NCBI RefSeq assembly: GCF_000178835.2
Contig: NC_015275.1
Location: 3,183,001-3,247,000, forward strand
Length of the DNA stretch: 64,000 nucleotides
From: Cellulosilyticum lentocellum DSM 5427
GTDB lineage: Bacteria > Bacillota > Clostridia > Lachnospirales > Cellulosilyticaceae
Direction of reading: 5' to 3'
Part shown: positions 4,525 through 16,620 of the stretch, piece by piece
How the letters are laid out: every line of letters begins with the position of its first letter
How positions within the stretch are numbered: position 1 is the first letter of the stretch
Notes under the pieces: generated by a model
What the model was told of the DNA's origin: nothing
What the model saw: only the letters and a program-made list of their open reading frames with translations
Database searches by the model: none
Translations under genes and position numbers: made by a program

Positions 4525-4625
4525 TACCTTCCCTCCTTTTATAAACAGTTTATCATATTACAAATAATTTGAAAACAACATCTCTTAGCAAAGCGTATAT
4601 TGTAAATTGAAATTCGTAATATATA

Positions 4626-4830
4626 AGTGAAGGTTCTCAGCAGCCTTCACTCTTTTATTTTATAATGAAGGTGATTGGCTGATGGAATTTGAAATTGGGA
4701 CATTACGCCCGTAGTTAAATGTGTCAGCTAGCCTTCATTTTCTTGCATTCGATTCAGCAAGTTGGGACATACAAATGCTCCCGTTTAACCAACGAATATG
4801 AATGGAAACTGAAGAGTTGGAACCAATCAA
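4626..4830 (+). ncRNA. candidate bridge RNA of the IS110 element
   Basis: Three consecutive foldable units precede the transposase. (1) A hairpin AGTGAAGG (4626-4633) / CCTTCACT (4644-4651). (2) A long stem-loop closed by AATGAAGG (4664-4671) / CCTTCATT (4732-4739) and GGCTGAT (4677-4683) / GTCAGCT (4723-4729), with an internal loop and a GGG/CCC tip. (3) A second looped domain, 4746-4813, with a GGGA/TCCC tip. Domains 2 and 3 share TTGGGACAT on the 5' side (4695, 4762) and CCCGT-TTAA on the 3' side. This matches the known order of IS110 bridge RNAs: a 5' stem-loop, then target-binding and donor-binding loops. The assignment is structural inference. Confidence 0.55.
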
Positions 4831-4856
4831 ATATTCTACTATAAGGAGGTATCCCC

Positions 4857-6050
4857 ATGATTGCTGTTGGAATAGATGTTTCAAAATCCAAAAGCACTGT
4901 TGCTATCTTAAATTCCAATGGTTCTTTACTTGTCAAGCCATATACAATGACACATACTCAATCCGATATGTGTGCCTTGGTTGACTATTTATGTACCTTT
5001 GATGAACCCATTACCATTCTCATGGAGTATACAGGTCACTATCACTATCCAGTACTTAAAAAGCTACAACAGGAAGGATTCCCTGTCTGCATTATCAATC
5101 CATATCAAATGAAAAAATATGCCGACGTTGAAATCCATAAAGCAAAAACTGATAAAAAAGATGCTATCAGAATTGCTACATATGCTCTGGAAAAGTCTTA
5201 TAAACTCGTCCCCTATAACTCATTGGAGCAGAAGTATGAAGATCTGAAATTTTTGTCAAGGCAATATAATCAACGAATTTCCTCTGTGTCCTATACAAAG
5301 GTTCAGTTGATTAACCTACTTGACCAGACAATGCCGGGAATTACTCGCTTACTTCCTCTAAAGAGCAGGAATCCTGAACAATGCGTTTTATTACTTTTTA
5401 TCAAACGCTTTAAATCTTTTGATGAAATCAACAAAATCGGCAAAACACGTTTTCTTTCCAGTTATACAACACTTGTGAAGAAAACTTGCGACCGCCACGC
5501 TCCAAGTAAAGGATTGGCAATATATGAGCTTGCCACTAACAGTATTACAACCCGCGGTGAAGACCCATATATTCAGCTTGCTCAAAGTCAATGCGTAGAC
5601 CTTTTAGCAACTTCACAGAATGCAGCAGATGAGATTATCCTGCAAATGCAGACCATGGCTGAAACCATACCTGAATATAAAATCCTCAGGGCTATGGCTG
5701 GCGTAGGTGATAGACTTGGTCCAATAATACTTGCTGAGATTGGTGATATTCGCCGTTTTCATAGTGGTAAAGCTCTTAATTCCTTTGCTGGAAATGATGC
5801 GCCACCTTATCAATCCTGGCAATTCGAGAGCAGAAACCGCCACATATCAAAACGTGGTAGTGCCACCCTCAGAAAAGCTTGTTTTGAGGTTATGCAGGCT
5901 CTCAAACTGACAAAACCTCAAGATGATCCCGTCTACCTTTTTATGTTAAAAAAGGAGCAGGAAGGAAAACCCTACAACGTAGCCAAAATGGCTGGTGTAA
6001 ATAAGTTTCTCCGAATTTACTACGCTCGTGCGATGGAGCTTTATAAGTAA
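4857..6050 (+). CDS. IS110-family transposase (DEDD recombinase)
   Basis: Catalyses site-specific movement of the element through an RuvC-like fold plus a C-terminal serine domain. The 397 residues carry the acidic tetrad as D7 (GIDVSKSK), E57 (LMEYTGHY), D99 and D102 (KTDKKDA). The C-terminal transposase_20 domain begins near residue 270 (AMAGVGDRLGPIILAEIGD) and includes the ES...ISKRGSATLRKA motif with the candidate catalytic serine. Length is typical of the family (about 330-430). The start follows AAGGAGG at good spacing. The gene is intact, with no stop or frameshift. Coding runs within about 50 bases of the likely right end, so guide-RNA sequence must be in the 5' region. Confidence 0.93.
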   Translation: MIAVGIDVSKSKSTVAILNSNGSLLVKPYTMTHTQSDMCALVDYLCTFDEPITILMEYTGHYHYPVLKKLQQEGFPVCIINPYQMKKYADVEIHKAKTDKKDAIRIATYALEKSYKLVPYNSLEQKYEDLKFLSRQYNQRISSVSYTKVQLINLLDQTMPGITRLLPLKSRNPEQCVLLLFIKRFKSFDEINKIGKTRFLSSYTTLVKKTCDRHAPSKGLAIYELATNSITTRGEDPYIQLAQSQCVDLLATSQNAADEIILQMQTMAETIPEYKILRAMAGVGDRLGPIILAEIGDIRRFHSGKALNSFAGNDAPPYQSWQFESRNRHISKRGSATLRKACFEVMQALKLTKPQDDPVYLFMLKKEQEGKPYNVAKMAGVNKFLRIYYARAMELYK

Positions 6051-6168
6051 ATCCGAGTTTATTATCATATATTTTTGAAAAATCTACAATACGTAGGTTT
6101 ATTAAGGTTACCCTTTTTAAAGATGAAATTTCTTAAAATTCTTCTTGACAAACATTAGCAAGATTTGT

Positions 6169-6422
6169 CTTGGCGTTTATGAGAAGTACGTCTGAGAGAA
6201 AATGAGTGGGTATGGGTGCCTTCCGTTGTTCCGGTTCACATTTTTTTGAAACACTAAGTTCACTTATTTAGATGAACGGCAGAACTCACTTCGTTCAAAC
6301 AGCTGCCTAAAACCCATCTAAAACGTTCACTAAGTGCTTCTAAAAGATGCTCCCAAGTCACTACTCCAGGCACCCATACCCACTCATTTTCACAAACATT
6401 ATTGACCTCATAAACATCCAAG
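6169..6422 (-). repeat. long imperfect palindrome, element A (hairpin family)
   Basis: A perfect 23-bp inverted repeat (6198-6220 with 6369-6391) is extended by an outer imperfect pair (6169-6183 with 6407-6422). Inside, CATCTAAA (6316-6323) pairs with TTTAGATG (6267-6274) and a CTGCC/GGCAG tip hairpin follows. Read on the minus strand, its core matches element B at 21 of 23 bases (6314-6336 against 6747-6769) and again on the other arm (6252-6278 against 6808-6834). It does not look protein-coding. It may be a mobile palindrome or a structured RNA. Confidence 0.7.
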
Positions 6423-6691
6423 ACAGTGAAGTAGCGTGGAAAGAAGGCGTAACGACAGTTAAAAAATACTCGAAGCCAGGGACAGGCGCCCAAGGCAATA
6501 ACGTATAAAGCTTCCCATAAGTCTATTTTGCCAAGAAGTAGCTCTGTAAGGAAGCTAGGGAGCCTTACAAGCATTATTGATCTCTTAAGTATTCAAACCC
6601 CTAAGTGAAAAGTGCAGAAAAAAGATAATAACAAGTTTTGTTTTTTCTTGAAAACACTTAATGAAGGCGACTTTACGCGTTATTGCTGGTA

Positions 6692-6887
6692 GAACTGAGA
6701 GAGGGTAGCTGTCCTAGCGGGGTAACTTCGGAGTATTTTCAGTAGGCACTTAGCGAACGTTTTGGATGGTACTTAGTCCACGTGCCCCCGGGAACCGAGT
6801 TTGTGGACGTTCATCCAAAAAAGTGAGCTTAGTGCCTACTGAAAATACGGAGCCAAGCCACGTAGGATAGTCACCCTCTCTCAGTTC
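6692..6887 (+). repeat. long imperfect palindrome, element B (hairpin family)
   Basis: The stem is built from four perfect blocks: 6692-6706 with 6873-6887 (15 bp), 6733-6750 with 6831-6848 (18 bp), 6760-6768 with 6812-6820 (9 bp), and GTCCAC (6776) with GTGGAC (6803). Total size, 196 bp, equals that of element A (194 bp). Where A and B differ within stems the partner base differs too (G-C for A-T at the GGATG/CATCC helix, C-G for T-A in the CTTAG helix). The interval 6423-6691 between them holds no convincing gene. Confidence 0.7.
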
Positions 6888-6950
6888 CGCTCAAATAGCC
6901 TAGTAAAGCCACCGACAAATTTCTATTTGTACAATTCACCAGCCAGATGC

Positions 6951-10514: not shown

Positions 10515-10830
10515 CTAAAAAACCCCGTCCCTTTTTAAATAATCATCTTATTTAAAAAGGGACGGGGATATGTATTCCCGCGGTTCCACCCTTGTTACTT
10601 TGCTTGGCTAAGTTATATGAATGCTTCCTCCCTATAAAGAACTATTCATTCATGCTTAAACTTACCAAAGTTAAAGTCACTCGCTTTACTGACGATAACG
10701 GGGTCACCGAATTGTTTTACAATCACTCCGAGGTAGTCTTCACTTATAGTCTTTAAAGATGCTCCCACCACTGCATCTTCTCTCTGAAAAAGCTTTTATA
10801 AGTTACTCGTCTCATCATTGTTTTTTGGTA
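10515..10830 (-). promoter_or_regulatory. T-box leader (tRNA-Thr sensing) of thrS
   Basis: The T-box core GGGTGGAACCGCGGG is at 10577-10591 on the minus strand. It is followed by a strong terminator stem (10523-10541 with 10549-10567, then six T). The AGAGAGAAGATGCAG segment near 10790-10805 fits the base of Stem I. ACC at 10702-10704 in the context GGTGACCCC is the likely specifier codon, a threonine codon matching the downstream synthetase. Binding of uncharged tRNA-Thr would favour the antiterminator. Confidence 0.95.
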
Positions 10831-16353: not shown

Positions 16354-16371
16354 CTACACAATTCAATATTT

Positions 16372-16620
16372 TGTAGAGGCGCGGTTGCCAAGAGTAGATT
16401 ATAGGATTTTTACAAGAAAAGATGATTATAGTCAAAAGGGGTAATCGCCGAAGATTAAATAGCTTGTACTATTTATTTCTGGTTGTCTGGTTAATAGCTA
16501 TACAACTGTCATCCTTTATTATACAATAAGGATGGAGTGCTACATATAATCATAAGTTTATTTATATCTATTTTATGATGATTATGCGTGTAGCCAGCCT
16601 CTAGAAGCTGGTTTTTTTAT
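16372..16620 (+). promoter_or_regulatory. lysine riboswitch (L box) with terminator
   Basis: The conserved lysine-aptamer segments appear in order: AGAGGCGCGGTTGCCAAGAG (from 16375), AAAGGGGTAATCGCCGAAG (about 16435), GGTTGTCTGG (about 16483), ACTGTCATC (about 16505) and GGATGGAGTGCTAC (about 16530). A terminator follows at 16592-16618 (CCAGC/GCTGG then seven T). Lysine binding should stop transcription before dapA. Confidence 0.97.

Follow-up and report, generated by a model that had tools for sequence, protein, structure and literature searches.

Paired long hairpins of Cellulosilyticum lentocellum as a candidate mobile DNA element with a conserved apical motif

The window is a 64-kb stretch of the Cellulosilyticum lentocellum DSM 5427 genome. 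On balance, it probably contains a single copy of a DNA element of mobile, non-autonomous type, in which two convergent long hairpins work as folded DNA and are bounded, in Cellulosilyticum, by short terminal inverted repeats. The element is repeated, has sharp edges and pairs its hairpins convergently. Its stems covary, its asymmetric apical motif carries a covarying 2-bp mini-stem, and the same apex sits on long hairpins of other phyla. Judged from the sequence, the element is apparently mobile. No description of it came up in a string search of the literature; subscription papers and bioRxiv lay mostly outside this search, so an earlier description is possible. Repeated stem-loop families have likewise been described in 40 bacterial genomes (PMC2267715), but these are per-species families, and the apical motif was not seen in the part of that source that was compared.

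Hairpins A and B and the repeat unit

The original prediction placed two hairpins of opposite orientation at 6198-6391 (A) and 6692-6887 (B). Both are real. According to the sequence and a repeat finder, the arms of A (6198-6221/6368-6391) are complementary at 24/24 positions, and those of B (6692-6716/6863-6887) are 88% complementary. Folding-energy z-scores are -8.1 for A (6185-6400) and -10.5 for B (6680-6900), and none of 200 shuffles folded equally well in either case. The predicted coordinates, however, cover only the inner part of each hairpin; the predicted outer stems extend to the limits given in Table 1. A conserved core had also been claimed, and it was confirmed by reading the sequence. 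The core at 6314-6336 is identical in 21/23 bases to the reverse complement of 6747-6769, and both differences are compensated on the opposite arm, with A-T in A against G-C in B and T-A in A against C-G in B.

Comparison of 33 loci of the same genome revealed that A and B together make up a single repeat of approximately 0.77 kb (6165-6928), one half each. Its order is the inverted repeat AAATAGAAATTTGTC, hairpin A, the spacer, hairpin B, and AAATAGAAATTTGTC in inverted orientation. From end to end, the units measure 358 to 1267 bp (n=16). Within the spacer, the stretch 6564-6634 resembles the end of another hairpin subtype, and the unit therefore looks like a mosaic.

The left inverted repeat of the window copy is severed by an IS110-family insertion sequence. 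A second copy of the element (locus L102) carries an IS110 with identical junctions in its inverted repeat. Since the junctions are the same in the window (4604-6169) and at L102, this insertion sequence seems to target the inverted repeat. Its placement in the two copies looks as though the guide RNA had been programmed for that repeat.

Table 1. Positions of the repeat unit and of the interrupting insertion sequence in the window
Feature	Position	Strand	Basis
Left terminal inverted repeat, outer part (AAATTGAAATT), severed by the IS110 insertion	4604-4614	+	End search and locus comparison
IS110-family transposase gene of the interrupting insertion sequence, not part of the hairpin element	4857-6050	+	Pfam DEDD_Tnp_IS110, Transposase_20
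Left terminal inverted repeat, inner part (ATTTGTC)	6163-6169	+	Locus comparison and end alignment
Hairpin unit A with the outer stems of the predicted fold, TTGTCTTGG/CCAAGACAG and GTTTATGAG/CTCATAAAC	~6165-6426	+	Predicted fold
Apical motif of A, AACTC-ACTTCGT-TCAAACA; the opposite strand can form AC-GAA-GT, a GNA-type mini-hairpin	6283-6301	+	Motif scan and tip analysis
Spacer separating hairpins A and B	6427-6665	.	Repeat finder and genome matches
Hairpin unit B, inverted relative to A	~6666-6913	-	Predicted fold
Apical motif of B, AACTC-GGTTCCC-GGGGGCA	6783-6801	-	Position by reading
Right terminal inverted repeat AAATAGAAATTTGTC, perfect	6914-6928	-	End searches and locus comparison

Copies in the C. 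lentocellum genome

Copy number was one of the checks proposed together with the original prediction. The 23-base core has 40 matches in the genome at three or fewer mismatches, against 0 for a reversed control. Counting the window copy, A has 15 near-full-length copies (88-100% identity) and B has 11 (87-100%). Among 46 hairpins listed for this genome, all 15 adjacent pairs converge. Adjacent pairs elsewhere are also mostly convergent, with 9/11 in the motif-scan loci and 5/7 in loci of the order, the latter partly chosen for holding two matches. No match to window positions 6050-6950 was found in plasmids.

All 40 core matches lie within 0.18-0.75 Mb and 3.18-4.50 Mb of the chromosome, and none lies in the roughly one half between these regions.

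Relatives in the order and covariation of the stems

Ten hairpins were used to build a covariance model covering 87 positions of the apical part. At E <=0.01, 19 of the 246 genomes searched within the order gave a match, the C. lentocellum genome included, as did 13 of the 186 genomes of good quality. In 82 distinct hairpins, all 25 model pairs show two-sided changes, which amount to 542 cells (shuffled mean, 145); the alignment was fitted to the covariance model, which helped these pairing figures. One-sided changes that keep the pair number 15 against the 542 two-sided ones, while 138/1992 cells are unpaired and about 21/1992 are G-U. Within the C. lentocellum genome itself, 43 sequences show two-sided changes in 29 of 50 pairs. 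Further copies thus covary, as the original prediction required, and the same is seen in the KNHs205 hairpins described below.

One family hairpin (L171:215-410) lies in an apparent spacer between 23S and 5S rRNA genes, which were identified by eye. At L203, lipoprotein-like and transglutaminase-like reading frames, named by eye, lie between the two hairpins, with no transposase. In a single case, in Cellulosilyticum ruminicola (L204:2326-4190), two convergent hairpins flank what is left of an IS200-type transposase gene.

The apical motif and its mini-stem

The apex of the hairpins has the form AACTC-[mini-stem]-TCARACA, in which a short variable stretch lies between the two flanks. Matched flanks are present in 73 of the 82 distinct hairpins, although two of these, with 9 bases between the flanks, look spurious. 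Exactly seven bases separate the flanks in 64 hairpins, which contain 25 distinct heptamers, and eight bases do so in seven tips. Nine of the 82 hairpins do not have matched flanks. They include B of the window, whose tip retains an intact 5' half and has a decayed 3' TCARACA half; TCAAACA is present in several other B copies. Some of the nine have longer inserted tips, which at L210 and L211 appear by eye to be self-complementary.

The mini-stem pairs are absent from the covariance model, so pairing within the heptamer is an independent test. Of the 25 distinct heptamers, 22 have a Watson-Crick pair between positions 1 and 7 and 23 between positions 2 and 6; none of 20,000 shuffles, which ignore relatedness, scored as high for either. 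The first pair can be G-C, C-G, or A-T, and the second C-G, T-A, or G-C. Read on the opposite strand, the heptamer is GC-GNA-GC or a compensated variant, and GNA occurs in 15 of the 25.

Loops of GNA or GNNA on at least two G-C pairs form extraordinarily stable DNA mini-hairpins, and GCGAAGC has a Tm of 78 °C (PMC4686876, in part). The heptamer opposite AACTC..TCARACA resembles these d(GCGNAGC) mini-hairpins in that it reads GCGNAGC or a compensated variant. d(GCGNAGC) is known as an oligonucleotide structure, whereas here it would cap a genomic hairpin. We infer that the genomic tip may fold as a GNA mini-hairpin. Natural hairpins with a GAA-type loop are the promoters of the phage N4 virion RNA polymerase, which extrude from supercoiled DNA. 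They share the GAA-type looped hairpin with the putative tip fold of the present element, but they are much shorter, phage-borne, and serve transcription.

The motif in other phyla and in Clostridium sp. KNHs205

A scan of a bacterial and archaeal collection with the 19-mer AACTCGCTNCGCTCARACA found at least 118 stretches. The matches listed include Marinobacter, Variovorax, Haemophilus, Flavobacterium, Flammeovirga, many Clostridia, and others. Also among the matches listed, the flanks of 81 of 125 scorable genome hits are palindromic beyond the 99th percentile for randomly chosen positions, and those of 44 of 125 do not exceed this percentile. In viral contigs, 21 of 86 hits exceed the 99th percentile for palindromic flanks. 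At 39 of 87 viral loci the 19-mer lies within one recurrent reading frame, and these are therefore not hairpins of interest.

Allowing up to two mismatches, whole-genome counts are far above the reversed control in several genomes (75 to 0, 101 to 2, 64 to 1, and 39 to 0). The corresponding counts are 26 to 7 in the C. lentocellum genome, 96 to 55 in G245, 43 to 21 in G265, 65 to 60 in G266, and 23 to 19 in G262; because the reversed control is high in these five genomes, weak matches there mean little. The exact motif occurs in 14 of 398 genomes of the phylum with 94 matches, and the reversed control gave 0 among the matches listed. This patchy, multi-copy spread is as for a mobile element.

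Relative to the tip, the second internal loop (CTAAA or TTAAA / TTAACG) of hairpins from other phyla (L302, L328, L338) is on the side opposite to that in the window (6270-6330), as if the hairpin top had been flipped.

In Clostridium sp. KNHs205, 44 exact motif hits in 40 stretches share a unit of approximately 240 bp with sharp edges, and 40 of the 44 hits fall in no reading frame of at least 90 codons. Among 42 of these hits, two-sided changes that keep the pair are found in 32 of 59 pairs (152 cells against a shuffled mean of 31). The asymmetric internal loops, including GTGCTTGACAT/ATAGCAC, are fixed while the stems vary. No separate inverted repeat was found in the KNHs205 units, so the arrangement of two hairpins inside inverted repeats may be peculiar to Cellulosilyticum. 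In one KNHs205 hairpin (L475:1966-2006), some 40 bases contain two complete tips that face opposite ways.

DNA or RNA

The original prediction had left both a palindromic mobile element and a large structured RNA in view. The mobile element fits the near-identical copies at unrelated sites, the sharp edges, and the convergent pairing, while the structured RNA is less well supported in the light of the few one-sided changes and G-U pairs and the decay of young copies.

This decay is seen in the subfamilies A, B, and Ap (14, 11, and 8 distinct sequences), in which 14 two-sided changes stand against 65 mispaired cells (27 G-T, 22 A-C, and 16 other). In Cellulosilyticum, G-T and A-C mispairs number 41 and 38 when four groups are counted, the mixed group included, and 32 and 41 in all 43 sequences. 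The mispairs in young subfamilies and the near-equal numbers of G-T and A-C indicate that resident copies decay and that, in the C. lentocellum genome, G-U is not clearly preferred on either strand. Individual copies lose pairing in place, yet compensation is maintained from one subfamily to the next; we therefore favor a mobile element that is non-autonomous and for whose propagation the DNA hairpin is important. We read the constraint as acting on propagating copies, probably at the DNA level. Acceptor stems of tRNAs were set aside as a control for wobble pairs, with just 11 distinct tRNAs and an uncertain offset.

Conserved single-stranded letters amid covarying helices are the usual picture of a structured RNA, and the hairpins might accordingly form a non-coding RNA family in which they are transcribed and their conserved loops bind a protein or another RNA. 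The mispairs of the KNHs205 upper stem also lean to A-C on the given strand (20 against 5 G-T; 34 and 17 over all pairs), that is, to G-U on the other strand. This skew could fit wobble pairs on the opposite strand, although shared ancestry makes it weak. Against an RNA family stand the rarity of one-sided kept changes (15 against 542), the roughly balanced mispairs and decaying young copies of Cellulosilyticum, the opposed hairpins in 15/15 pairs of the C. lentocellum genome, and the result of the Rfam scans. These gave no credible match, in line with the earlier failure to recognize a known RNA family. The whole window has 3 Rfam matches, all unrelated. The hairpin region searched at E up to 10 gave 5 sub-threshold hits, the best of which, to a microRNA model from plants, scored 28 bits where the cut-off is 180. 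Five loci of the C. lentocellum genome gave one tRNA and nothing else, and 18 of the 118 motif loci gave none. Taken together, we consider an RNA family unlikely. sRNA-Xcc1 was entertained as a relative; this was a guess, with no Rfam match in the 18 loci scanned, and was dropped.

Two-sided changes with hardly any one-sided ones would also be explained if the symmetry had no function and template switching or mismatch repair simply turned near-palindromes into palindromes. The asymmetric internal loops nevertheless persist, as GTGCTTGACAT/ATAGCAC in KNHs205 and AACTC/TCARACA widely, and young copies in C. lentocellum break rather than heal. Symmetry of this kind leaves the copy number unexplained as well, and as a full account it is highly improbable. 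A process that restores symmetry may act together with a mobile DNA element. As a hypothesis, the same picture would arise from repair that re-establishes Watson-Crick pairing within a DNA hairpin but leaves larger loops untouched.

Element ends and target sites

The terminal inverted repeat AAATAGAAATTTGTC or its variants, about 15 bp long, is found at 46 ends in the genome; these come from a fuzzy search, and a few look like chance matches. Directly beyond the inverted repeat of the 46 ends, similarity drops towards background. The bases immediately outside (T 26, A 30, T or C 36) lean to TA followed by T or C. Many of the ends found by searching the genome fall at known copies.

Flanking duplications, another of the proposed checks, did not appear: in 16 full-length copies, shared flanking words were no longer than in mismatched pairings, and words of at least 5 bases occurred in 1/16 against 11%, so that no target-site duplication beyond chance was found, a 2-bp duplication being beyond the resolution of this comparison. 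Insertion beside terminators is not in excess in KNHs205 (toward the element 0.09 of 44 against 0.10 of 195 controls; away from it 0.11 against 0.14). For the C. lentocellum ends the difference is weak (8/46 against 10/168).

MITEs have short inverted repeats, no gene, many copies, a parent transposase, and a target-site duplication. For Cellulosilyticum only, the element could be a MITE of a classical DDE transposon, in which movement depends on the inverted repeats and the hairpins are simply carried along. The 15-bp repeat at 46 ends agrees with this, and the lean to TA and T or C could be a TA target. The absence of a duplication longer than chance speaks against it, as do the KNHs205 units, which multiply as single hairpins without such ends, the conservation of the apical motif across phyla, and the lack of a recognized autonomous relative among the end matches assigned. 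We regard a MITE as decidedly unlikely. The likeness to MITEs as described in the available part of PMC4666352 consists of short inverted repeats, no recognized gene, many copies, and long stem-loops. The present element differs in that no parent transposase was recognized, no target-site duplication was found, and structure is kept while the stem sequence changes. The intrastrand triplex repeats of the same source (PMC4666352, in part) have a different motif and were rejected as relatives.

Candidate mobilizing enzymes

No protein recurs generally beside the hairpins. Among the 118 genome loci, the largest cluster of neighbor proteins is represented at 13 loci, and most of its members (21/32) are reading frames that run across the hairpin itself. 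The next clusters cover 11, 8, and 7 of the 118 loci, so apart from hairpin frames no recurrent protein extends beyond 11 loci.

REPs and REPINs are dispersed extragenic palindromes of 20-40 bp that form inverted doublets, carry a GTAG or CGTC end tag, and are linked to the REP-associated tyrosine transposase, RAYT (PMC3116915 and PMC3733652, each in part). The present element resembles REPINs, as far as these sources describe them, in its dispersed extragenic palindromes, inverted doublets, compensated subfamilies, and non-autonomous nature. Inverted doublets of extragenic palindromes were found here in 15/15 pairs of the C. lentocellum genome, and 40/44 KNHs205 hits are extragenic. The differences lie in size (20-40 bp in those sources, but here inner hairpins of about 195 nt and units of about 240-260 nt), in the GTAG or CGTC end tag, in place of which an apical motif is common to several phyla, and in the tie to RAYT, which is not consistent here.

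A giant REPIN moved by a RAYT would account for inverted, extragenic, dispersed doublets like those in PMC3116915 (as far as consulted), and a RAYT-like gene is present in C. lentocellum, at 80.5 bits (cut-off 80). RAYT matches occur in 20 of 34 genomes, 5 of them over the cut-off. At E 0.001, no RAYT match was found in KNHs205 (G253, 75 motif matches) or in G017, G246, G247, G255, G256, and G260, all of which are motif- or model-positive, whereas G001 and G006 have a RAYT match and neither model nor motif hits. RAYT presence thus does not track the hairpins, and RAYT was rejected as a general mover. In addition, hairpins of 194-262 nt are far beyond 20-40 bp, and inspection revealed no constant GTAG or CGTC end tag. 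A giant REPIN is accordingly very unlikely.

Proposed mechanism

We return to the non-autonomous mobile DNA element. Each hairpin would work as folded DNA, either as a single strand or as an extruded cruciform, and the GNA-capped tip on one strand may start the fold. The fixed single-stranded letters, namely AACTC / TCARACA and the second internal loop, would be recognized by a putative enzyme supplied in trans. The long stem would merely position these letters, and its sequence may therefore change if both arms change together. The constraint would fall on propagating copies, while a resident copy would have no site-specific job and would decay.

More tentatively, and with somewhat less than even confidence, we propose that the hairpins belong to a superfamily of mobile DNA hairpins that spans phyla and whose only common feature is a folded signal at the apex (AACTC / TCARACA, the GNA-capped mini-stem, and the second internal loop). 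Its members would be copied by a putative, probably widespread enzyme that reads DNA structure, and a DNA-level process during copying would keep the stems symmetrical. REP-type palindromes are linked to a single enzyme family and to a tag of linear sequence at their end, whereas the shared signal here appears to be a folded tip that is kept across phyla while the stems are free to change. Such a tip would be a handle for finding the mobilizing enzyme. Dozens of natural variants would also make it possible to ask if copying acts on folded DNA and not on RNA or a linear sequence.

A second repeat and other features

Five large forms of the element (L094, L098, L103, L116, L119) contain a second repeat of approximately 490 bp. 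Its copies that were scored are 91-95% identical, and inspection revealed a terminator-like hairpin at its end. The copy in L094 lies at 2245-2745. The repeat also occurs free-standing (L165, L166) or beside a hairpin element, L167 is another copy, and a weak relative is present in another genus (L168:302-405). It gave nothing at the Rfam gathering score in the loci scanned, and it may be a multi-copy non-coding RNA. No match to the 1.3-kb form L094 was found in phage and plasmid records.

Elsewhere in the window, a lysine riboswitch (16366-16550) and a T-box leader (10555-10827) are ordinary Rfam matches.
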